Assembly (NCBI GenBank): GCA_947307505.1
Contig: CAMZJG010000007.1
Span: 1-15,637, forward strand
Origin: an uncultured Clostridia bacterium
Lineage (GTDB): Bacteria > Bacillota_A > Clostridia > Oscillospirales > Oscillospiraceae
DNA: 15,637 nt
Reading direction: 5' to 3'
Positions within the stretch are counted from its first letter, which is position 1. The number at the start of each line of letters is the position of its first letter. The position numbers and the translations under genes are program-made. Below are positions 2,743 to 12,098 of the stretch, in pieces. The notes beneath the pieces were generated by a model that was not told the origin of the DNA, searched no databases, and worked only from the letters and a program-made list of their open reading frames with translations.

Positions 2743-2771
2743 TTGACATTTGCGATTTAAAACGCTATAAT
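2743..2771 (+). promoter_or_regulatory. Perfect consensus sigma-A promoter of the aromatic amino acid operon
   Basis: The -35 box TTGACA (2743-2748) and -10 box TATAAT (2766-2771) match the vegetative consensus at all 12 positions and are 17 bases apart, the optimal spacing. The expected start is A2778. Such a strong promoter fits an operon whose output is set after initiation, by attenuation in the leader, rather than by a weak regulated promoter. It diverges from the transporter promoter; the two -35 boxes are 35 bases apart (2708-2742). Confidence 0.88.
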
Positions 2772-2801
2772 CTACCCAACCTGTTTTTGGAGGACGGCTT
2801 G

Positions 2802-2888
2802 ATGCGTTTCATCAGCGGCAGCAGCTTTTATTTTGGGTACTATTCCTTTACAGAAAAAAGGAATAGCGCTTTGTGCTGCCGTTTCTGA
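2802..2888 (+). CDS. Phe/Tyr-rich leader peptide of the aro operon
   Basis: A 28-codon ORF inside the transcribed leader, with GGAGG at 2789-2793 placed 8 bases before ATG and TGA at 2886-2888. Eight of 28 residues are aromatic: F3, F9, Y10, F11, Y13, Y14, F16 and F28. Residues 9-16 read FYFGYYSF, and there is no Trp. The last residues are ALCCRF. This is the composition expected of an attenuation leader that senses charged tRNA-Phe and tRNA-Tyr, like the pheA leader of enteric bacteria, but with both amino acids mixed. The peptide is probably not functional as a product; what matters is where the ribosome sits. The RNA strands that decide attenuation are encoded in its codons (CGGCAGCA at 2816-2823 and TGCTGCCG at 2874-2881). 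Its function is inferred from composition, the ribosome site and the downstream terminator. Confidence 0.87.
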   Translation: MRFISGSSFYFGYYSFTEKRNSALCCRF

Positions 2889-2923
2889 ACCGCTCTTTCC
2901 CCGTTCGGCCGACTGCACAGCGC
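2814..2923 (+). promoter_or_regulatory. Attenuator RNA: protector and antiterminator pairings
   Basis: Mutually exclusive pairings are visible. Protector 1:2 is CGGCAGCA (2816-2823) with TGCTGCCG (2874-2881), 8 perfect pairs, extended by a G-U and an A-U to 2814/2883. A nested hairpin inside it pairs CTATTCCTTT (2840-2849) with AAAGGAATAG (2857-2866), 10 perfect pairs over a 7-base loop. Antiterminator 2:3 is GCGCT (2866-2870) with AGCGC (2919-2923), GTGC (2873-2876) with GCAC (2915-2918) and GCCG (2878-2881) with CGGC (2906-2909): 13 pairs with small bulges. Strand 3 is also the 5' arm of the terminator. A ribosome stalled on Phe/Tyr codons would mask strand 1, free strand 2 to capture strand 3, and let transcription continue. 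A ribosome that reaches the TGA covers strand 2, so the terminator forms. Pairings were read by eye, without folding energies. Confidence 0.8.
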
Positions 2924-2943
2924 ATATGCTGGGCAGTCTTTTT
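2911..2943 (+). terminator. Intrinsic terminator of the leader (attenuator)
   Basis: The stem pairs GACTGC (2911-2916) with GCAGTC (2933-2938) and CAGC (2918-2921) with GCTG (2928-2931), with one A/G mismatch, a 6-base loop and a run of five T followed by CTTT. It sits between the leader peptide stop (2888) and the DAHP synthase ribosome site (2962-2967), the right place for premature termination. Its 5' arm is shared with the antiterminator. Confidence 0.85.
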
Positions 2944-2975
2944 CTTTATCCAAATCGAAGTAAGGAGAATGCGTT

Positions 2976-3977
2976 ATGATCGCCGTATTGAAACCCAATA
3001 CCTCCCCGGAACAGAGGGAACATTTGATCAAGTGGCTGAAAACCATGGTCGCGGATGTGCATATTTCCGAGGGAAAAGCCTATACGGTCCTGGGCCTGGT
3101 GGGCGATACCAGCCGCATCGATCCGGAACTGCTGGAAAGTCTGGATATCGTGGAATCCGTGCAGCGGGTCAGCGAAGCCTATAAAAAATGCAGCCGCCAG
3201 TTCCATCCGGAGGATACGGTGGTAGAAGTGGGGAAGGCGCGGATCGGCGCAGAATTCTGCATCATCGCCGGTCCCTGCTCCGTGGAGAACGAGGCGCAGA
3301 TCATCGACGTGGCGAAGCGGGTGAAGGCCGCCGGAGCCGACGTCCTCCGGGGCGGCGCCTTTAAGCCCCGCACCTCTCCTTATGATTTCCAGGGCCTGAA
3401 GGGGGAGGGCCTCCGGCTTCTGAGCGAGGCCAAGAAAGCCACCGGACTGCCCCTGGTAAGCGAGATCATGAGCATCGATACCCTGGACCTTTTTGAGGAT
3501 GTGGACATCATCCAGGTCGGCGCACGGAATATGCAGAACTTCGATCTGCTGAAGGAGCTGGGGCATCTGGACCGGCCCATCCTGCTGAAGCGGGGGCTGG
3601 CCAGCACCCTGAAGGAGCTCCTGATGAGCGCGGAGTACATCATGGCTGGGGGCAATGAGAAGATCATCCTCTGCGAGCGGGGCATCCGTACCTATGAGAC
3701 CATGACCCGGAATACGCTGGATCTTTCCGCGGTGCCCGTGCTGCAGGAGCGGACCCATCTGCCGGTGATCGTGGATCCCAGCCATGCCACAGGCCTCAGC
3801 CGTCTGGTGCCCCCCATGGCCCTGGCTGCTGCGGCGGCGGGAGCGGACGGGATCATGGTGGAGGTGCATAATGATCCGGCCCACGCGCTGTGCGACGGAG
3901 CCCAGTCCCTGACGCCGGAGCAGTTTGCGAACCTGAGCGGACGGGTCAGAAAGCTTCTGGAGGCGATGAGCGCATGA
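2976..3977 (+). CDS. aroF: 3-deoxy-7-phosphoheptulonate (DAHP) synthase, class I-beta with N-terminal regulatory domain
   Basis: First committed step of the shikimate pathway: condenses phosphoenolpyruvate with erythrose-4-phosphate in the cytoplasm. It has 333 residues. Residues 1 to about 70 look like the ferredoxin-like domain of the Thermotoga maritima enzyme, which in that family mediates Phe/Tyr feedback inhibition; residues 85-330 are the TIM barrel. Metal ligands appear as Cys101 (GPCSVE 99-104), His270 (DPSHA 267-271), Glu296 (EVH) and Asp307 (CDG). Substrate motifs are KPRTS at 130-134, GARNMQN at 182-188 and KRG at 205-207. No chorismate mutase domain is fused. AAGGAG lies 8 bases before ATG. 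It is the first structural gene after the attenuator, so supply of the pathway's entry enzyme follows Phe/Tyr-tRNA charging. Its TGA overlaps the next ATG. Confidence 0.96.
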   Translation: MIAVLKPNTSPEQREHLIKWLKTMVADVHISEGKAYTVLGLVGDTSRIDPELLESLDIVESVQRVSEAYKKCSRQFHPEDTVVEVGKARIGAEFCIIAGPCSVENEAQIIDVAKRVKAAGADVLRGGAFKPRTSPYDFQGLKGEGLRLLSEAKKATGLPLVSEIMSIDTLDLFEDVDIIQVGARNMQNFDLLKELGHLDRPILLKRGLASTLKELLMSAEYIMAGGNEKIILCERGIRTYETMTRNTLDLSAVPVLQERTHLPVIVDPSHATGLSRLVPPMALAAAAAGADGIMVEVHNDPAHALCDGAQSLTPEQFANLSGRVRKLLEAMSA

Positions 3978-4810
3978 CGGTAGGCATCGTTGGACTCGGG
4001 CTCATCGGGGGTTCCATGGCGAAGGCCTTTTCCCGGGCGGAGGGAGTCCGGGTCCTGGGGCTGGATACGGATAAAAGCATCCTGGGGTTTGCCATTCTGT
4101 CGGGGGCTGTGTCTGAGGAACTCACCCGGGAAAACCAGGGGGACTGCGATTTGCTGCTCCTGGCGACGTACCCGAAGGCTGCGGAGGATTACATCCGGAA
4201 GGAGGCCCCCTACCTCCCGAAGGATATGGTGGTGATGGACTGTCTGGGGACCAAGCGCCCGATCTGCGCCGCAGCGTTTCCCCTGGCGGAAGAATACGGG
4301 TTTACTTTCGTGGGCGGACATCCCATGGCGGGTACCCATCATTCCGGTTTCAAGTATGCCCGGGAAAACCTGTTTCACGGGGCGCCCATGGTCCTGGTCC
4401 CCCCTGCGCATTTCGATATGGAGCTGCTGGAGCGGGTGAAAACGCTCCTGGCCCCTCTGGGCTTCGGCTCTTTCGCCGTCACTACGGCAGAGCAGCATGA
4501 CGAGATGATCGCCTTTACCTCCCAGATGCCCCATCTGGTCTCCAATGCCTATATCAAGAGTCCCATGGCTGTGGGGCACAGGGGGTTCTCCGCGGGGAGC
4601 TACAAGGATATGACCCGGGTAGCCTGGCTGAAGCCGGAGATGTGGACGGAATTGTTCCTGGAGAATCGGGACAATCTCCTCCGGGAACTGGACTCCTTTA
4701 TCGGGGATCTGGAGAAGTACAGGAAGGCGTTGGAATCGCAGGATGGCGAGACCCTGCAGCATCTCCTGGAGGAAGGCTGCAGACGGAAAATGGAGATCGA
4801 CGGAAGATGA
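3974..4810 (+). CDS. tyrA: Prephenate dehydrogenase (no ACT domain)
   Basis: NAD(P)-dependent oxidative decarboxylation of prephenate to 4-hydroxyphenylpyruvate, the Tyr branch. It has 278 residues: an N-terminal Rossmann fold with GLGLIGGS at 7-14, the active-site GGHPMAG at 114-120, SQMPHL at 183-188 and GFSAGSYKDMTR at 204-215, then a helical dimerisation part. The chosen start is the ATG in the ATGA overlap with the DAHP synthase stop; the frame is open further upstream inside that gene, but the Rossmann beta strand begins right after this ATG. Unlike Bacillus subtilis TyrA, there is no C-terminal ACT domain, so direct Tyr feedback through ACT is not expected. An arogenate dehydrogenase specificity cannot be ruled out from sequence alone. 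Confidence 0.93.
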   Translation: MTVGIVGLGLIGGSMAKAFSRAEGVRVLGLDTDKSILGFAILSGAVSEELTRENQGDCDLLLLATYPKAAEDYIRKEAPYLPKDMVVMDCLGTKRPICAAAFPLAEEYGFTFVGGHPMAGTHHSGFKYARENLFHGAPMVLVPPAHFDMELLERVKTLLAPLGFGSFAVTTAEQHDEMIAFTSQMPHLVSNAYIKSPMAVGHRGFSAGSYKDMTRVAWLKPEMWTELFLENRDNLLRELDSFIGDLEKYRKALESQDGETLQHLLEEGCRRKMEIDGR

Positions 4811-5868
4811 GCACAGTCGTCATCCCCGCTTCCCGCACCTATGAGGTGCAGATCGAGGACCGGCTTCCCGCGGACACGGGGGAGCGGGTCCGGGCAGCCG
4901 TGCCCGGCGCCGCCCGGGCGGCGATCCTGGCGGATGATACGGTTTGGGGCCTGTATGGACAGGAGTTAAAGGACCTTCTCGCCGGAGCGGGTCTGACGGT
5001 GTTCCATCATGTTTTCCCCCACGGGGAAGCCTCCAAAAACGCCTCCGTCTATATCGGGATCCTGGAATGGCTCAGCCGATGCCGAATGGACCGGCAGGAT
5101 GTGCTGCTGGCCCTGGGAGGCGGGGTCACGGGAGACCTGGGGGGCTTTGCCGCCGCCACCTATCTCCGGGGCATCGCCTATATCCAGGTCCCCACCACGC
5201 TGCTGGCCATGGTGGATTCCTCCGTGGGCGGAAAGACCGCGATCGACTTAAGCGCAGGAAAGAACCTGGCAGGGGCTTTCTGGCAGCCCAGTCTGGTCCT
5301 GTGCGGCTGCTCGGCGCTGGATACGCTGCCCCGGGAGACCCTGGCGGACGGCTGTGCAGAGGTGGTGAAATACGGCGTCCTCTGCGACCCGGAGCTGTTC
5401 CTCCATCTGGAGGAACGGGGACTGGATTTTGACCGCGCCTGGGCCGTGGAGCACAGTGTGCGGGATAAACAGGGTTTCGTCAGTCGGGATGAATTTGACC
5501 GGGGGGCAAGAAAACTCCTGAACCTGGGCCATACTCTGGGTCATGCCCTGGAACAGCACAGCGGCTTCACCCTCAGCCACGGTCGGGGCGTAAGCATCGG
5601 CATGGCGGCGGTGACCAGAGCAGCCGCCGCCCGGGGCTGGTGTCCGGCGGAGCTGCCCGGAAGGCTGGAGCGCCTGCTGGAGAAGCTGGAGCTGCCTGTC
5701 CGTTCCCCCTGGCCGGCGGAAGAACTGGAGGAATTCATGCTGGCGGATAAGAAATGGAGCGGGTCCCGGGTGGACGTGATCGTGCCCGAGGAGCTGGGAC
5801 GCTGCGGGATCCGTCCCATGGACCGGCAGGAACTCATGGATTTCATGGAAGCGGGGTGCCGGGAATGA
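4807..5868 (+). CDS. aroB: 3-dehydroquinate synthase
   Basis: Second step of the shikimate pathway: converts DAHP to 3-dehydroquinate with bound NAD+ and a divalent metal. It has 353 residues, the family length. The NAD-binding glycine loop GGGVTGDLGGF is at 104-114, followed by the diagnostic PTTLLAMVDSSVGGKTAI at 129-146. Likely metal ligands are Glu185 (AEVVKYG), His242 (LGHTLGHALE) and His258 (SHGRG). The start is ATG at 4807 in an ATGA overlap with tyrA; the frame is open upstream to 4642, but that extension lies inside tyrA and has no family counterpart. It is in the cytoplasm and presumably translationally coupled to tyrA. Confidence 0.96.
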   Translation: MSTVVIPASRTYEVQIEDRLPADTGERVRAAVPGAARAAILADDTVWGLYGQELKDLLAGAGLTVFHHVFPHGEASKNASVYIGILEWLSRCRMDRQDVLLALGGGVTGDLGGFAAATYLRGIAYIQVPTTLLAMVDSSVGGKTAIDLSAGKNLAGAFWQPSLVLCGCSALDTLPRETLADGCAEVVKYGVLCDPELFLHLEERGLDFDRAWAVEHSVRDKQGFVSRDEFDRGARKLLNLGHTLGHALEQHSGFTLSHGRGVSIGMAAVTRAAAARGWCPAELPGRLERLLEKLELPVRSPWPAEELEEFMLADKKWSGSRVDVIVPEELGRCGIRPMDRQELMDFMEAGCRE

Positions 5869-7091
5869 GAGTGACAATACAGCCCGGGCCTCTGGAGGGA
5901 GAATTGCGGGCTGTCCCTTCCAAGTCGCAGGCTCACCGGCTCCTGATCTGCGCCGCCCTGGCGGACAGGCCCACGGTGCTGGAGTGCGGCATGCTGAACA
6001 AAGATATCGAGGCCACCGCCTCCTGCCTTCAGGCTATGGGGGCAGAGGTACAGTATCGCTGCGGAGCATTCCGGATCGTCCCTATCCGGACGATTTCCCG
6101 CGGTGTGGTGCTGGACTGCGGGGAAAGCGGCAGTACCCTGCGTTTTCTCCTGCCCGTGGTCTGCGCCTTGGGCGGGGAGGGGCGCTTCCTCCTGCGGGGC
6201 AGACTGCCGGAACGGCCCCTCTCCCCCCTGTGGGAGGAGCTGGGACGGCACGGAGCGGTGCTGAGCAGGCCCATCCGGGACGCCGTTGCCTTTTCCGGCA
6301 GACTGGAACCAGGCGTTTATTCCATTCCCGGGGATATCTCATCCCAGTATATCAGCGGCTTGCTCTTTGCCCTGCCCCTGCTGGAAGGGGAGAGCGTACT
6401 GATTCCCACCGGCAGGCTGGAATCCGCGGGATATCTGAGAATGACGAAACAGGCACAGGCTATGTTTGGCCTGGAGTGGTCCGGGGAACAGGCGGGGGAG
6501 GGCTGGCGGCTCGTCTCCGGCCGTTGTTACCGTTCCCCCGACCGGGCGGAGGTGGAAGGAGACTGGTCCAGCGCGTCCTTCTGGCTGGCAGCGGATGCGC
6601 TGAGCAGCGGGAAGATCCGGATCTCAGGCCTGGATCCGGATTCCGCCCAGGGGGACAGGATAGCTGCGGAGCTGATCCCCCGTATCCGATCGGGCGGCGC
6701 GGTGATCGACGCGGGGAATATTCCGGATCTGGTGCCTCCGCTGGCGGCGGTGGCTGCCGCCAGTCCGGGGGAAACACGGTTCATCAACGCCGGGAGGCTC
6801 CGGCTGAAGGAAAGCGACCGGCTGCAGAGCGTCTGCGCCATGCTGAATGCCCTGGGGGCGGAGGCTGAGGAAAAGCCGGAGGAACTGATCGTCAGGGGAA
6901 AAGAGACCCTGCGGGGCGGCGTGGTGGACAGCTGCCGGGATCATCGGATCGCCATGAGCGCCGCCGTTGCTGCGCTGGTCTGCCGGGAACCGGTGACCAT
7001 CCTGGGGGCGGAGTCGGTGGAGAAATCCTATCCCGCCTTCTGGCAGGATTACCGCCGTCTGGGCGGCAGCATCCGGGAGGAGGAAACATGA
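5865..7091 (+). CDS. aroA: 5-enolpyruvylshikimate-3-phosphate (EPSP) synthase
   Basis: Transfers enolpyruvyl from phosphoenolpyruvate to shikimate-3-phosphate. It has 408 residues, slightly short of the usual 425-440. Motifs in order: PSKSQAHR at 18-25 (Lys20, Ser21, Arg25), CGESGSTLRF at 85-94, GDISSQYISG at 156-165, EGDWSSASF at 231-239, NIPDLVPPLAA (Asp288, the likely proton shuttle), LRLKESDRL at 312-320 (Glu316, Arg319), DHRIAM at 359-364 and VEKSYPAFW at 385-393. Compared with the Escherichia coli PEP/glyphosate loop GNAGTAMRP, Gly89 is kept while the Thr and Pro positions are Ser90 and Phe94. The start is ATG at 5865 in an ATGA overlap with aroB; upstream in-frame codons lie inside aroB. 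Confidence 0.95.
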   Translation: MRVTIQPGPLEGELRAVPSKSQAHRLLICAALADRPTVLECGMLNKDIEATASCLQAMGAEVQYRCGAFRIVPIRTISRGVVLDCGESGSTLRFLLPVVCALGGEGRFLLRGRLPERPLSPLWEELGRHGAVLSRPIRDAVAFSGRLEPGVYSIPGDISSQYISGLLFALPLLEGESVLIPTGRLESAGYLRMTKQAQAMFGLEWSGEQAGEGWRLVSGRCYRSPDRAEVEGDWSSASFWLAADALSSGKIRISGLDPDSAQGDRIAAELIPRIRSGGAVIDAGNIPDLVPPLAAVAAASPGETRFINAGRLRLKESDRLQSVCAMLNALGAEAEEKPEELIVRGKETLRGGVVDSCRDHRIAMSAAVAALVCREPVTILGAESVEKSYPAFWQDYRRLGGSIREEET

Positions 7092-8113
7092 GCAACAGCT
7101 TCGGTAATTTGTTTCGTTTTACGATCTTCGGCCAGTCCCACGCCCCGGCCATCGGGGTGACCATCGAGGGATTGCCCGCGGGGAGCCCTGTGGATCTGGC
7201 GACCCTGCAGAAATTTCTGGATCGGCGGGCGCCGGGGAAGAGCCCCCTGTCCACCGCCCGGAAAGAGGCGGATATCCCGGAGCTTCTCTCCGGCCTGGGG
7301 CCGGAAGGAAAGACCTGCGGCGCGCCGCTGACCTTCCTCATCCGCAATAGGGATACCCGATCCGGAGACTATGAGCAGCTCCGGTTTGTCCCTCGGCCGG
7401 GACATGCGGATCTCCCCGCCATGCTCCGTTTCGGAGAAAGCCGGGATTATCCGGGCGGCGGGCAGTTTTCCGGCCGCCTTACCGCGCCCCTGTGCATCGC
7501 CGGCGGGATCGCCCTCCAGCAGCTGGAAACCATGGGGATCCGGGCGGAGGCGAAGATCCTCTGCATCGGCGGGGAGAAGGATCCGGAGCGATTCGAGGAG
7601 ACCATCCTCGCCGCCGCCGGAGAGGGAGACAGCGTAGGCGGCGTGATCGAATGCACGATCCATGGCTGCCCCCCGGGGATCGGAGAGCCCATGTTCGGCG
7701 GTTTGGAAAACCGCATCGCCCAGGCGGTGTTCGGGATCCCCGCAGTAAAGGGGATCGAGTTCGGCGCGGGTTTCCGGGCGGCGGAGATGACCGGAAGCGT
7801 CTGCAACGACCCCTTTGTTCCCGGGCCGGAGGGAAGCATCCGGACGGAGGGCAACAACCACGGCGGCATCCTGGGAGGAATGAGCACAGGGATGCCCATC
7901 GTCTTCCGGGCGGCGGTGAAACCCACGCCTTCCATCGCCCTGGAGCAGCGCAGCGTGGATATCCGCACCGGGGAACCGGTGCCCCTGCGGATCAGCGGAA
8001 GACACGACCCCTGCATCGTGCCCAGAGCCGTACCTTGTATGGAGGCGGCTGCCGCGGCAGCCCTGTATGACGCCATATTGGAGAGGAGATGTTCACAGAA
8101 TGGATCTTTCTGA
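7088..8113 (+). CDS. aroC: Chorismate synthase
   Basis: FMNH2-dependent anti-elimination of phosphate from EPSP to give chorismate, the branch point. It has 341 residues, at the short end for the family. FGQSHAPAIG at 14-23 and PGHAD at 104-108 hold the likely catalytic pair His18 and His106. DYPGGGQFSGRLTA at 120-133 replaces the common GGGRSSARETA. GNNHGGILGGMSTG at 255-268 and GRHDPCIVPRAVP at 304-316 build the FMN and substrate site. The ATG overlaps the aroA stop by ATGA. Its last 14 bases overlap the next gene, whose ribosome site lies inside this gene. No flavin reductase domain is fused, so it depends on external reduced flavin unless the protein itself reduces it. Confidence 0.95.
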   Translation: MSNSFGNLFRFTIFGQSHAPAIGVTIEGLPAGSPVDLATLQKFLDRRAPGKSPLSTARKEADIPELLSGLGPEGKTCGAPLTFLIRNRDTRSGDYEQLRFVPRPGHADLPAMLRFGESRDYPGGGQFSGRLTAPLCIAGGIALQQLETMGIRAEAKILCIGGEKDPERFEETILAAAGEGDSVGGVIECTIHGCPPGIGEPMFGGLENRIAQAVFGIPAVKGIEFGAGFRAAEMTGSVCNDPFVPGPEGSIRTEGNNHGGILGGMSTGMPIVFRAAVKPTPSIALEQRSVDIRTGEPVPLRISGRHDPCIVPRAVPCMEAAAAAALYDAILERRCSQNGSF

Positions 8114-9242
8114 AGCCAGAGTGAAGATCGACGAGATCGATAAGCAGTTGGTGGACCTGTTCTGCCAGAGGATGACGGTGAGCAGGGATGTGGCGGCCCG
8201 GAAAAAGGAAAAGGGCCTGCCCCTGACGGACCCGGAGCGGGAACGGAAAAAACTGGTGGAAGTCACGCAGCAGGCGGGAGAGGAATTTCAGGGTTATACT
8301 GCCGCCCTGTATTCCCAGCTCTTTGACCTGAGCAAGGCCTACCAGTCCCAACTGAACCGGGGCAAAGCCCCTCTGTGCACCATGATCGAAGAGGCGATCG
8401 CCAAAACGCCGGAGGTTTTCCCGGAATTTGCCCCCGTTGCCTGCCAGGGCGTGGAGGGGGCCTATTCCCAGGAGGCCTGCGAGCGGCTTTTCTCCGTACC
8501 CAATATTCTGTTTTTCAAGAATTTTGAGGGTGTTTTTACCGCCATAGAACAGGGCATGTGCCGGTATGGCGTCCTGCCCATCGAAAACAGCACCGCGGGC
8601 AGCGTGAACGCGGTGTACGACCTGATGATGCGCCACCGCTTTTACATCGTGCGGAGTGTACGCCTGAAGGTGGAACACTGTCTCCTGGCTCCCGCCGGCA
8701 CGGAACTGAAGGATCTCCGGGAGGTCGTATCCCATGAGCAGGCGCTGAATCAGTGCGCATCTTTCCTCAAAAGTCTCGGAGACGTGAAGCTCACGACGTT
8801 CGAAAACACCGCCGCGGCGGCCAAATATGTTGCCCAGAGCGGCAGAAAGGACGTGGCGGCCCTGTCCTCCCGGCACTGCGCAGCCCTGTACGGCCTCAAC
8901 TGCCTGCGGGAATCCGTGCAGGATCAGGGCGGCAACTTTACCCGTTTCATCTGTATCGCCCGGGAGCCGGAGATCTATCCCGGGGCGGATAAAACCAGCA
9001 TCATGGCGGTCACGCCCCATAAGCCCGGTTCCCTGTATAAGCTTCTGGCCCGCTTTTTCAGTCTGGGGATCAATCTGACCAAGCTGGAAAGCCGGCCGCT
9101 GCCGGAGCGGGAATTCGAGTTCATGTTCTACTTCGATCTGGTGAAGCCCATCCGGGCTCCTCAGATGATCAGTCTCCTGGGCGATCTGGAAGGGCTCTGC
9201 GAGCGCTTCGAGTACCTGGGCAGCTATTCTGAGATCGTATGA
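8100..9242 (+). CDS. pheA: Bifunctional chorismate mutase / prephenate dehydratase (P-protein)
   Basis: Converts chorismate to prephenate and then to phenylpyruvate, the Phe branch. It has 380 residues in three parts: an AroQ-type chorismate mutase helix bundle at about 1-87 (DLSEARVKIDEIDKQLVDLF at 2-21), the prephenate dehydratase at about 110-288 with PIENSTAGSV at 160-169 and the catalytic NFTRF at 279-283, and a C-terminal ACT domain at about 300-375 with GSLYKLLARF and LESRP (329-333), which in the family binds Phe for feedback inhibition. The start is ATG at 8100 with AGGAG at 8084-8088; another in-frame ATG at 8067 would add 11 residues but lacks a good ribosome site and lies deeper in aroC. 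The mutase also supplies prephenate to TyrA, which has no mutase domain. Confidence 0.95.
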   Translation: MDLSEARVKIDEIDKQLVDLFCQRMTVSRDVAARKKEKGLPLTDPERERKKLVEVTQQAGEEFQGYTAALYSQLFDLSKAYQSQLNRGKAPLCTMIEEAIAKTPEVFPEFAPVACQGVEGAYSQEACERLFSVPNILFFKNFEGVFTAIEQGMCRYGVLPIENSTAGSVNAVYDLMMRHRFYIVRSVRLKVEHCLLAPAGTELKDLREVVSHEQALNQCASFLKSLGDVKLTTFENTAAAAKYVAQSGRKDVAALSSRHCAALYGLNCLRESVQDQGGNFTRFICIAREPEIYPGADKTSIMAVTPHKPGSLYKLLARFFSLGINLTKLESRPLPEREFEFMFYFDLVKPIRAPQMISLLGDLEGLCERFEYLGSYSEIV

Positions 9243-10471
9243 CGAACCGTTTTGGCCTGCTGGGGGAGCATCTGAGCCACAGCTTTTCCCCCCAGATCCA
9301 TGCCGTCCTGGGCTGCCCGGATTACGGCCTGTATGAGGTCGAGCCGGATAAGCTGGCAGAGTTTCTGGAGACCACCCCTCTGCTGGGGATGAACGTCACC
9401 ATTCCTTACAAGAAGGCGGTTGTTCCCCTGTGCGCTGCTCTGTCCCCGGCGGCAGAACGCATCGGCAGTGTGAATACCCTTCGCCGCACTTCGGAGGGAT
9501 GGTACGGGGACAACACGGATTACGCGGGATTCCGGTATATGCTCTCTTCCCTCGGCTTCGATCCGGCCGGGGAGAAAGCGGTGGTCTTCGGCACCGGCGG
9601 AGCCAGCGTCACGGCATGCACCGTGCTCCGGGACCTGGGGGCGGCGGAGGTGACGGCGATCTCCCGCACCGGTCCGGATCATTACGGGAATCTGGATCGC
9701 CATCGGGATGCCCGGCTTGTGGTGAACGCCACCCCCGTGGGCATGTATCCGGAAAACGGGAAAGCGGCGGCGAGTCTCCGAAGCTTTCCGGAATGCCGGG
9801 CTGTACTGGATCTGATCTACAACCCCGCCCGCACCGCCCTTCTGCTGGAGGCGGAGACGTTGGGCATCCCCTGCCGGAACGGACTGGGGATGCTGGCGGC
9901 ACAGGCTCATGGCAGCGAGGAGGTTTTTCAGGGCCATTTCCTGCCGGAGGACCTGATCGAGAAGGCTTCCGGGAGCGTGCGGAAGTTAACGGAGAACCTG
10001 ATCCTCATCGGCATGCCGGGCTGCGGGAAGACCCGGCTGGGGAAGCTGCTGGCCAAGGAGCTGGATCGTCCCTTCCTGGATGCGGACGAGGTGCTGACCC
10101 GGGAAGCCGGGCAAAGTCCTGCTGAGATCATCCGGCAAGAGGGGGAGGCGGCCTTCCGAGACCTGGAAACCCGGGTGCTGGCGGAGCTGGGAAAGGGTTC
10201 CGGTGCGGTCATCGCCACGGGAGGGGGCTGCGTGATGCGGCCGGAGAACCGGAACCTTCTGCGGCAGAACGGCAGGATCTTCTGGCTCCGGAGGGATCTG
10301 AGCAAACTCCCGGTTTCCAACCGCCCCCTGAGTCAGAGCGTCGGTCCGGGGGAGCTGTACCGGCGGAGGAAGGATCTGTACGCCGCGTTCGCAGATCATC
10401 GGGTGGAGAATAACGGCAGCCCGAAGGCTGCCGCCAAGGAGATACTGGAGCTATGGGAAAAAAGCTGCTGA
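9239..10471 (+). CDS. Fused shikimate dehydrogenase - shikimate kinase
   Basis: A single 410-residue ORF carrying two pathway enzymes (aroE and aroK functions). Residues 1 to about 245 are shikimate dehydrogenase: SHSFSP at 13-18 binds shikimate, MNVTIPYK ends in the catalytic Lys58, NTDYAGF contains Asp94, GTGGAS at 118-123 is the nucleotide loop, and NATPVGMYP (163-171) and NGLGMLAAQA (214-223) follow. Residues from about 250 to 410 are shikimate kinase: Walker A GMPGCGKT at 258-265, FLDADE (Asp281, Asp283), GEAAFRDLE at 302-310, ATGGGCV at 326-332 and the lid NRPL with Arg362. The linker is only about 10-15 residues. No internal stop or frameshift is seen, so this is a real fusion. It starts in an ATGA overlap with pheA. 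It joins the NADPH-dependent reduction of 3-dehydroshikimate to phosphorylation of the product shikimate. Confidence 0.94.
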   Translation: MTNRFGLLGEHLSHSFSPQIHAVLGCPDYGLYEVEPDKLAEFLETTPLLGMNVTIPYKKAVVPLCAALSPAAERIGSVNTLRRTSEGWYGDNTDYAGFRYMLSSLGFDPAGEKAVVFGTGGASVTACTVLRDLGAAEVTAISRTGPDHYGNLDRHRDARLVVNATPVGMYPENGKAAASLRSFPECRAVLDLIYNPARTALLLEAETLGIPCRNGLGMLAAQAHGSEEVFQGHFLPEDLIEKASGSVRKLTENLILIGMPGCGKTRLGKLLAKELDRPFLDADEVLTREAGQSPAEIIRQEGEAAFRDLETRVLAELGKGSGAVIATGGGCVMRPENRNLLRQNGRIFWLRRDLSKLPVSNRPLSQSVGPGELYRRRKDLYAAFADHRVENNGSPKAAAKEILELWEKSC

Positions 10472-10920
10472 TCATCAACGGACCCAATCTGAACATGCTG
10501 GGCATCCGGGAGCCGGAACTTTACGGAAAACAGGATTTTGCCGCCCTTTGTGCCTGCATCCGGGAGGCCTGCGATCAGGCCGGAGCAGAGGCGACCCTCT
10601 TTCAGTCCAACCATGAAGGGGACCTGGTAGAGGTCATTCAGAAGGCCTACGGCGTCTATGACGGCATAGTCATCAATCCCGCGGCGTACACCCACACCAG
10701 CGTGGCCATTCTGGATGCGCTGAAGGCCGTGGCCATCCCCGCGGTGGAGGTGCATCTGACGGACGTGCAGTCCCGGGAGGAGTTCCGGCGCATCTCCTAT
10801 CCCGGCATGGCCTGTCTGAAAACCTTCGCGGGCTTCGGTTTTGACGGATACAGGCTTGCAGTTGACTATCTGATGAGTTATCTTAAAGAAGAGGAAAAGA
10901 AAAAGGAGGAATTCGCGTGA
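10453..10920 (+). CDS. aroQ: Type II 3-dehydroquinate dehydratase
   Basis: Dehydrates 3-dehydroquinate to 3-dehydroshikimate, completing the chorismate route. It has 155 residues, close to the usual 145-150. NGPNLNMLG at 10-18 is the family signature, Tyr24 in ELYG is the catalytic tyrosine, QSNHEG is at 51-56, NPAAYTHTSVAI at 75-86 contains Asn75 and His81, and EVHLTD at 99-104 holds His101. The type II enzyme forms dodecamers in known members. It overlaps the fusion gene by 19 bases; AAGGAG at 10436-10441 is 11 bases from ATG. The C terminus, from residue 145 on, is highly charged (KEEEKKKEEFA) and is encoded by a purine-rich stretch that also contains the ribosome site of the next gene. 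Confidence 0.95.
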   Translation: MGKKLLIINGPNLNMLGIREPELYGKQDFAALCACIREACDQAGAEATLFQSNHEGDLVEVIQKAYGVYDGIVINPAAYTHTSVAILDALKAVAIPAVEVHLTDVQSREEFRRISYPGMACLKTFAGFGFDGYRLAVDYLMSYLKEEEKKKEEFA

Positions 10921-12098
10921 TCCCATCTGATACCCTGGGCTGGGGCATTGCCCGAAACTGCATCCGCGAGGTTTACGAATACGGCCTTCGTCTGAAGGCG
11001 GAGATCGGGGAGGACAAGGTCTTTGATTTCAGCCTGGGCAATCCCAGCGTTCCGGCTCCGCCTCAGGTGAAAGAGGCGATCCTCAAGGCGCTGGAGGATC
11101 CCACCCTCCATGATTATACCGTCGCTCCCGGCCGTCCCAGTCTGCGGAAGGCCATTTCCGATCAACTGAACGCCCGCTGCGGGGTGAATACGGAATATAC
11201 GGATATCTACGTTACCTGCGGCGCTTCCGCCGCCGTCACCTCCTCCATCCGGGCCCTGACCCGCATCGGGGAAGAGGTGGTGGCTCTGGCCCCCCATTAC
11301 CCGGAATATCCGGTGTTCACCCGTACGGCGGGGGGAAAGTTCGTGGTCTGTTCCCTGCGGAGGGAGGATCTGCAGCTGGATGAGGCCGCTTTGGAGGCGG
11401 TGCTGACGGAGAAGACCTCCGTGGTGCTGGTGAACTCCCCCAATAACCCCGCCGGCAGCGTGCTGACGGAGGACAGCCTGAAGCGGCTGGCGAACGTTCT
11501 GCACAAGGCACAGGAGAAATTCGGCCATCCGATTTATATCGTCAGCGACGAGCCCTATCGGGAACTGGAGTACGACGGAAAGCAGGTGCCCAGTCCCATC
11601 AGCTTCTATGAAAACACCGTGGTCTGCTACTCCTACAGCAAGTCCCTTTCTCTCCCCGGAGAGCGGATCGGTTACTGCGCCGTGAGCGACCGGGCGGCGG
11701 ATCGGGAGAAGGTCTTTGCCTCTGTGGCCGGCGCAGCACGATCCTATGGGTATGTGAATCCCCCCAGCCTGATGCAGCGGGTCATCGAAGCCTGCGTGGA
11801 TCTGAAACCGGATATCAGCACCTATAAGGAGAACCGGGATATCCTCTGCGGCATCCTGGACGAAGTGAAGATGCCATATATCCATCCGGACGGAGCATTC
11901 TATCTCTTTATCCGGTGCCCGATCCCGGACGCCAAAGAATTCTGCGAACATGCCCGGAAATACGGTCTGCTTCTGGTGCCCTCCAATGATTTCGGCATCA
12001 CCGGCTACGCCCGGGCGGCTTACTGCGTGAAGGGAGAAATGATCCGCAGGTCTCTTCCCGCTTTCCGGTCTCTGGCACAGGAATACGGCCTCTGCTGA
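10917..12098 (+). CDS. Class I/II PLP aminotransferase, probable aromatic amino acid transaminase
   Basis: Fold-type I PLP enzyme of 393 residues. It contains NSPNNPAG at 173-180 (Asn177), DEPYRE with Asp211 and Tyr214, and SYSKSLSLPGERIGY with the Schiff-base Lys242 and Arg250; the substrate-carboxylate arginine is probably in GYARAAYC near the C terminus. As the last gene of an operon that ends in phenylpyruvate and 4-hydroxyphenylpyruvate, it most likely makes Phe and Tyr from these with glutamate or aspartate as donor. This is inferred from context; the sequence alone also fits aspartate, alanine or other class I transaminases. It starts with GTG: AAGGAGG at 10903-10909 lies 7 bases before GTG at 10917, and GTGA overlaps the aroQ stop. 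Confidence 0.9.
   Translation: MIPSDTLGWGIARNCIREVYEYGLRLKAEIGEDKVFDFSLGNPSVPAPPQVKEAILKALEDPTLHDYTVAPGRPSLRKAISDQLNARCGVNTEYTDIYVTCGASAAVTSSIRALTRIGEEVVALAPHYPEYPVFTRTAGGKFVVCSLRREDLQLDEAALEAVLTEKTSVVLVNSPNNPAGSVLTEDSLKRLANVLHKAQEKFGHPIYIVSDEPYRELEYDGKQVPSPISFYENTVVCYSYSKSLSLPGERIGYCAVSDRAADREKVFASVAGAARSYGYVNPPSLMQRVIEACVDLKPDISTYKENRDILCGILDEVKMPYIHPDGAFYLFIRCPIPDAKEFCEHARKYGLLLVPSNDFGITGYARAAYCVKGEMIRRSLPAFRSLAQEYGLC

Follow-up and report, generated by a model that had tools for sequence, protein, structure and literature searches.

We describe a Phe/Tyr-rich leader in front of the aromatic amino acid operon of an uncultured Clostridia bacterium, which very probably acts as a ribosome-mediated transcription attenuator before the aroF operon. 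The stretch of DNA analysed, referred to here as the window, is 15,637 nucleotides long, and the presence in it of a Phe/Tyr leader with a switchable terminator is confirmed. A first-pass annotation, made from the letters alone, had proposed ribosome-mediated attenuation at this site, and that reading is supported by the leader peptide, the alternative pairings, their covariation and the content of the operon. The mechanism would be classical ribosome-mediated attenuation, and the arrangement is repeated in many Clostridia. The elements of the leader are as follows.

2743..2771, + strand: sigma-70 promoter TTGACA-17-TATAAT (-35 at 2743-2748, -10 at 2766-2771), 12/12 match to the consensus
2789..2793, + strand: Shine-Dalgarno GGAGG, from the sequence, 8 nt 5' of the ATG at 2802
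2802..2888, + strand: leader ORF of 28 codons, MRFISGSSFYFGYYSFTEKRNSALCCRF, stop TGA, from translation
2814..2823, + strand: region 1, the 5' arm of the protector 1:2 (minimum free energy (MFE) fold; matching test)
2826..2849, + strand: control codons FYFGYYSF, from the sequence
2840..2866, + strand: control-codon hairpin, arms 2840-2849 and 2857-2866 (MFE fold; alignment of 28 leaders)
2866..2883, + strand: region 2, with region 1 (via 2874-2883) or region 3 (via 2866-2881) as alternative partners (folds; covariation)
2906..2923, + strand: region 3, which pairs with region 2 as the antiterminator and overlaps the 5' arm of the terminator (fold to 2923; covariation)
2911..2943, + strand: intrinsic terminator 3:4, stem 2911-2938 (-15.4 kcal/mol) and T tract TTTTT 2939-2943 (fold; covariation)

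The promoter annotated as perfect matches the consensus at every position with a spacing of 17, and the transcript would start near 2778. The ribosome site called well placed is the GGAGG listed above, and the 28-codon peptide with FYFGYYSF is encoded by the ORF at 2802-2888, which holds five Phe and three Tyr codons; its stop codon (2886-2888) lies at region 2, 87 nt from the start of aroF. The MFE fold of 2778-2975 (-71.6 kcal/mol, z -4.07, with 0 of 200 shuffles as stable) contains the protector, the control-codon hairpin and the terminator together. The protector appears in it exactly as annotated (2814-2823 with 2874-2883), and so does the T-tailed terminator proposed at 2911-2943. The annotated antiterminator (2866-2881 with 2906-2923) is present in the sequence and forms when the fold is ended at 2923, where, with the ribosome A site at 2832-2847, the region 2:region 3 pairing reaches -18.8 kcal/mol. 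One element was absent from the first-pass annotation, namely the hairpin into which the control codons themselves fold (2840-2849 with 2857-2866), and it is kept in relatives.

When region 4 is included, the terminator is found in the MFE fold of 6/6 stalled states of the window and 5/5 of relatives, and since it is present in all 11 stalled folds the switch has to be kinetic, with the order of synthesis deciding. Known attenuators likewise depend on the order of RNA synthesis. Against shuffled spacers the window taken alone gives p 0.005 for 1:2 and p 0.06 for 2:3, so that the 2:3 pairing would be weak from this single sequence. The fold also shows a possible 10-base pairing between the T tract (2940-2949) and the Shine-Dalgarno region of aroF (2960-2969); this predicted pairing may reflect trivial purine-pyrimidine complementarity or a second, translational layer.

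Relatives were collected by an AroF search of GTDB representative contigs, taking the best 80 of 591 encoding stretches. Two of these loci (L061 and L075) were left out on account of their short upstream sequence, giving 79 aroF loci, that is, the window and 78 relatives. A leader was scored wherever the 400 nt upstream of aroF contained an ORF in which Phe/Tyr fill at least 6 of 10 residues. Such an ORF was found at 64 of the 79 loci from the best 80 of 591 stretches, whereas the reverse strand gave 3/79, shuffled sequence 22/1580 and other genes 14/564, and the Phe/Tyr peptide is accordingly conserved at a level far above that of the controls. A looser cut-off of 5 Phe/Tyr gave 67 leaders among 81 sources, with a terminator of dG -8 kcal/mol or stronger in 66 of the 67, the exception being L004. 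Over 66 leaders the residues comprise 19.1% F, 17.8% Y and 0.3% W; at least two F and at least two Y occur in 62 of the 66, and a promoter matching at least 11/12 positions was found in the 102 nt before the upstream ORF (uORF) in 34 of the 66, compared with about 0.2% of base-shuffled controls. In one relative (L001), whose operon DNA is ~93.5% identical to that of the window, the leader peptide is the same and the sole nucleotide change in the ORF is synonymous; between the promoter and the T tract, changes fall in the 5' UTR, the hairpin loop, the spacer of regions 2 and 3 and the terminator loop. Between species the Phe/Tyr run varies in order, length and flanks, so that amino-acid content is kept and not sequence. 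Gut and rumen assemblies contributed many of the loci, and a cultured species, Aminicella lysinilytica (L029), is among the carriers of the leader. Two contigs titled Treponema (L041) and Thermoguttaceae (L047) carry an aroF of the same kind with a leader, and are probably misbinned clostridial contigs.

The alternative pairings were examined across these leaders in several ways. In the matching test, 65 leaders were compared with 5000 GC-stratified mismatched sets, the window being omitted as a near-duplicate of L001. The mean of own 1:2 pairings was -14.65 against a mismatched mean of -12.70, and that of own 2:3 pairings -13.97 against -12.41, each being stronger than all 5000 sets, as it was also against 5000 random matchings without strata, whereas in the negative control 1:3 the own pairing was no better than mismatched (p 0.63). 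A leader's own partner ranked in the best five of 65 for 21 leaders in 1:2, 15 in 2:3, 54 in 3:4 and 4 in the 1:3 control; the species-matching signal lies in the average, not leader by leader. A wider test with shuffled spacers placed 2:3 below the shuffle mean in 61/66 leaders and 1:2 in 54/66, with p<=0.05 reached individually in 17/66 and 23/66, respectively. A test restricted to the terminator arm was set aside (p<=0.05 in 13/66 leaders, mean z -0.92), its weakness being due to the narrowness of the bare arm, since the antiterminator extends on both sides of it.

For covariation, 28 leaders of similar architecture were chosen from the 67 and aligned without fitting to a structure. Control-codon hairpin and antiterminator together were paired in 91.5% of cells, and in 25 cells both sides had changed, both values being reached by 0/500 shuffles, and slid versions had 37-53% paired, although the structure counted was taken from row L017, which favours it over the slid ones. 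The counts of pairs and of pair types were reached by 1/500 and 5/500 shuffles. Taken alone, the antiterminator helix had 89.0% of cells paired, with 4 of its 11 pairs changed on both sides, and the two halves of the control-codon hairpin had 95.7% and 92.8%, with 3 pairs changed on both sides. Hairpin and terminator together had 92.9% of cells paired and 64 cells changed on both sides (0/500 shuffles; pair types 8/500). The alternative pairings are thus conserved in relatives with compensatory changes and, on average, with species-specific matching. As the alignment was selected for likeness and the structure came from one of its rows, the covariation counts support the helices without proving them alone.

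The geometry of the 28 leaders was considered with an assumed ribosome footprint of 12-15 nt. Region 2 starts 37-56 nt after the start of the first Phe/Tyr codon and 10-27 nt after the end of the last one, and the end of the stop codon falls anywhere from 13 nt upstream to 20 nt downstream of the point where region 2 begins. A ribosome at the first Phe/Tyr codon leaves region 2 free in 28/28 leaders and one at the last leaves it wholly free in 27/28, while a ribosome at the stop codon touches region 2 in 27/28. This regular codon spacing is what an attenuator requires, and it is left unexplained by any of the rival readings weighed below.

The genes that follow the leader were identified by NCBIfam and TIGR profiles, which recovered the full gene set of the shikimate-to-Phe/Tyr operon proposed in the first-pass annotation. 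They are listed with their divergent neighbour.

gene start 2633, - strand: ATP-binding gene of a divergent ABC-transporter-like cluster, named from translation only
2976..3977, + strand: aroF, DAHP synthase (B. subtilis type), TIGR01361, 4.2e-115
3974..4810, + strand: tyrA, prephenate dehydrogenase, NCBIfam best E 7e-49, below curated cut-offs (scan from 3968), start checked
4807..5868, + strand: aroB, 3-dehydroquinate synthase, TIGR01357, above cut-off
5865..7091, + strand: aroA, 3-phosphoshikimate 1-carboxyvinyltransferase, TIGR01356, 277.6 bits against a cut-off of 287.25
7088..8113, + strand: aroC, chorismate synthase, TIGR00033, above cut-off
8100..9242, + strand: pheA, chorismate mutase-prephenate dehydratase, NCBIfam best E 4.3e-61, just below cut-off (scan from 8067), start checked
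9239..10471, + strand: aroE-aroK fusion, shikimate dehydrogenase and shikimate kinase, each half matched in NCBIfam, under the cut-offs for single domains
10453..10920, + strand: aroQ, type II 3-dehydroquinate dehydratase, TIGR01088, above cut-off
10917..12098, + strand: PLP-dependent aminotransferase, the ninth gene, NF005305, above cut-off

With these starts, adjacent aromatic genes overlap by 4 to 19 bases at 8/8 junctions, which leaves little room for internal promoters, and this packing suggests that the one leader gates all nine genes. The operon makes the very amino acids, Phe and Tyr, whose codons fill the leader ORF. The gene order recurs in relatives. Where more than 8.5 kb of downstream sequence exists, as at 49 leader loci from the best 80 of 591, the leader is followed by tyrA in 45, aroB in 44, aroA in 44, aroC in 46, pheA in 41, aroEK in 41, aroQ in 34 and the aminotransferase in 4, and the exact order aroF-tyrA-aroB-aroA-aroC-pheA-aroEK-aroQ is found in 25.

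From these parts, with their conservation, covariation and spacing, we infer the timing, the termination and the response to Phe and Tyr as follows. Transcription would begin at about 2778, and a ribosome would translate the leader peptide behind the RNA polymerase. With charged tRNA-Phe and tRNA-Tyr plentiful, the ribosome would reach the stop codon at 2886-2888 and cover region 2; region 3 would then be available for the 3:4 terminator, ending transcription near 2943. When either charged tRNA is scarce, the ribosome would wait on the FYFGYYSF codons, where it would cover region 1 and/or melt the control-codon hairpin, freeing region 2; this would then pair with region 3 ahead of the synthesis of region 4, which would preclude the terminator and let the nine genes be transcribed. 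If the leader is not translated, the 1:2 protector and the hairpin would form, and termination would be expected.

The distribution of such leaders in Clostridia was surveyed in two ways. A covariance model built from the 28 leaders gave 44 matches in 41 of 391 Clostridia-class genomes (E<=0.001, strict filters), a tally that overcounts at its weak end due to spurious matches, while the strict filters miss divergent leaders. The 26 matches below E 1e-6 lie before aroF (23), pheA (1), tyrA (1) and a PaaK-like gene (1). The 18 weaker ones include 6 before aroF and 1 before a PaaK-like gene; 11 (L113, L117, L120, L122, L124, L125, L127 and L129-L132) were rejected, since they resemble plain sequence or ordinary terminators and no aromatic leader ORF accompanies them. 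The same kind of leader was observed directly before a pheA-like gene (L102:1501-1691) and directly before a tyrA-like gene (L106:1501-1653), with an aroB-like gene next in both. The second survey, intended to give an estimate with less bias, covered 60 AroF-type genes, hand-picked at about every second row of a ranked search of 148 genomes down to ~50% identity; some genomes are represented by two genes, and L185 and L207 show a single intergenic region from its two sides. A Phe/Tyr leader precedes 29 of the 60 and 31 have none by the criterion, the counts by falling identity bin being 8/11, 8/18, 11/16 and 2/15; at the control rate of 14/564, chance may account for one or two of the 29. One further gene (L172) has an upstream ORF that resembles the leader and scores 5, and is therefore uncounted. 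Four distant aroF genes (L194, L195, L201 and L206) have a variant leader with two aromatic clusters, and a single Trp codon occurs in 3 of these 4, for example FYFSWGYFYFSTGYFFCKK in L201.

T-boxes were sought in the same material. A scan of the window with 4227 Rfam models gave no match at gathering score, the T-box (RF00230) included, and the regions ahead of the 20 sampled aroF genes closest to that of the window gave none either. Within the sample of 60, a T-box lies upstream of 4 aroF genes, all of which are without the leader. A T-box before aroF was also considered for 15 leaderless or odd loci; scanning them whole gave two T-boxes (L005 at 10375, + strand; L030 at 2966, - strand), neither before aroF. 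At three loci (L005, L034 and L068) aroF lies 22-42 nt behind another gene, and is probably within another operon. In the genome of L001 (G001), seven matches to the T-box model have E<=0.001. The two before an alanine-aminotransferase-like gene and valS exceed the cut-off, and those below it include matches before pheS and a TrpB-like gene. It seems from these matches that one and the same cell uses a T-box to monitor its Phe-tRNA synthetase and a leader peptide to monitor Phe synthesis.

These results bear on explanations other than ribosome-mediated attenuation. That a T-box or an RNA-binding protein, and not a translating ribosome, picks the structure is highly unlikely: T-boxes do occur in G001, including the match below cut-off before pheS, and upstream of the 4 sampled aroF genes, but those four have no leader, no Rfam model matches at gathering score in the window or upstream of the nearest 20 sampled aroF genes, and a switch operated by a protein could do without a Phe/Tyr-rich ORF set in register with the helices. 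The absence of a fixed peptide sequence weighs on another reading, in which the leader works as a nascent-chain arrest peptide that detects, within the ribosome, a free small molecule instead of charged tRNA. Such leader peptides exist, TnaC being one, but arrest peptides need specific residues and the Phe/Tyr run changes in order, length and flanks among species, which makes this reading very improbable.

It is very unlikely that the uORF merely boosts or couples translation while the terminator is constitutive. The capacity of the T tract at 2940-2949 to pair with the aroF Shine-Dalgarno region at 2960-2969 would suit such coupling, yet the species-matched, covarying 2:3 pairing would then have no role, and the uORF stops at region 2, at a distance of 87 nt from the aroF start. 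As Phe and Tyr codons are T-rich, a T-rich stretch might be read as a Phe/Tyr peptide by chance, and 22/1580 shuffles do reach 6 in 10; against the 64/79 loci, their controls and the covarying helices, the probability of this is negligible. A ribosome-mediated attenuator accordingly stays by far the most probable reading of the leader.

The enteric pheA, trp and his attenuators have a short ORF rich in the relevant amino acid, overlapping 1:2, 2:3 and 3:4 pairings and a T-tailed terminator before a biosynthetic operon, and the window leader likewise has a short ORF, three overlapping helices, a terminator and a biosynthetic operon. It differs in occurring in another phylum and in failing to reach the gathering score of any Rfam model; the enteric pheA leader has Phe codons only, whereas here Phe and Tyr codons are mixed, and the control codons form a hairpin of their own, unlike in the enteric leaders. 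While an enteric leader serves one branch gene, the window leader heads the whole common pathway together with both branches. T-boxes relieve a terminator before a biosynthetic or synthetase gene on starvation, reading uncharged tRNA directly with no leader ORF; the task is the same as that of the window leader, although RF00230 was not detected in the window. In general accounts, Firmicutes rely on T-boxes or proteins for control that in Proteobacteria falls to leader peptides. Attenuation by an amino-acid leader peptide is reportedly the subject of a Listeria study also; as far as the accounts go, this and the S. aureus leader are Gram-positive attenuation too, but for branched-chain amino acids and in Bacilli.

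The S. aureus case is a leucine-rich attenuator of the branched-chain genes (PMC5794164). A 2005 comparison placed none of the tRNA-synthetase genes of Firmicutes under classical attenuation (PMC1262725). A classical histidine leader peptide, replacing a T-box, has been predicted before hisZ/hisS* in bacilli, and its authors, writing in 2010, knew of no earlier ordinary leader peptide outside Proteobacteria and Actinobacteria (PMC2965389); it is likewise a Firmicutes leader peptide, differing, as described there, in the amino acid, in its hisS-family genes and in belonging to bacilli (PMC2965389). The closest published item found is the uORFC-13-1 motif, in which a predicted uORF carrying one or more Phe codons, together with a terminator, precedes Acholeplasma aroF, described from 24 sequences of Acholeplasma and environmental sequences of unknown organism only (PMC8632094). 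A uORF with Phe codon(s) and a terminator before aroF are common to both, and the description of the motif, on which the comparison is based, mentions neither Clostridia nor any Tyr codon in the uORF (PMC8632094). No description of a clostridial Phe/Tyr aroF leader family was found in the open-licence literature to the extent that its text was available, an absence that does not amount to proof.

The codon content of the leaders gives some hints about the operons that they head, which are post hoc and come from few cases. Three operons in which tyrA was not found (L033, L035 and L074) have Phe-skewed leaders (0.75, 0.69 and 0.67, against a median of 0.5), but two operons with tyrA (L067 and L069) are equally Phe-skewed (0.73). 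Where aroF stands alone (L042 and L070), Phe nearly disappears from the leader (0 or 1 F, 5 or 4 Y), and region 2 is strong and differs from the usual one. Trp codons were observed in the leader ORFs of L004, L020 and L003 (NWRWRKF, CWRWRKF and IWYWYYF). A TrpB-like gene follows aroQ in L004 and L020, the L003 contig being too short to tell, and no T-box at gathering score was found in L004 or L020; no good terminator was found in L004, and L020 scored below the leader cut-off.

Phe-rich leaders were also observed at L118:1798-1970 (genome G109; MFLSVLFVFICLYFYFFAFLFCKSKSVLCCG) and L119:3830-3998 (genome G054; MLLKSFAFNSFFKLFVFRFTKGLLLCRE). They are followed by a terminator-like hairpin, recognised by eye, a phenylacetate-CoA-ligase-like (PaaK-like) gene (TIGR02155, 557 bits, below the cut-off of 646) and an ACT-domain gene. 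As a general feature of PaaK-like genes the leader was rejected, only 2 of 30 such loci having it and L139, with an 84% identical protein, lacking it. In two other genomes, T-boxes were seen upstream of the PaaK-ACT pair instead, at L148:711-947 and L149:3-238 (2 of 20 scanned). A Phe-rich leader before the pair suggests a possible Phe-making use of phenylacetate.

Whether, more broadly, a large undescribed family of aromatic attenuators has replaced T-boxes in Clostridia, with its codon mix retuned to the product of the operon, is in our estimate evenly balanced. Under this one joint proposal the leaders would carry Phe and Tyr before the whole pathway, be Phe-skewed where tyrA is lacking and nearly Tyr-only before a stand-alone DAHP synthase; Trp would be added with a TrpB-like gene, and the leader before the PaaK-ACT pair would be Phe-rich. 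The occurrence of a Phe/Tyr leader at 29 of 60 sampled clostridial aroF genes changes the general picture of Firmicutes for a central pathway. If the proposal is true, the Phe-rich leader would mark the PaaK-ACT pair as part of a route to Phe from phenylacetate, and if codon content tracks operon content, leaders of this kind could help to reveal the amino acid served by an uncharacterised operon.
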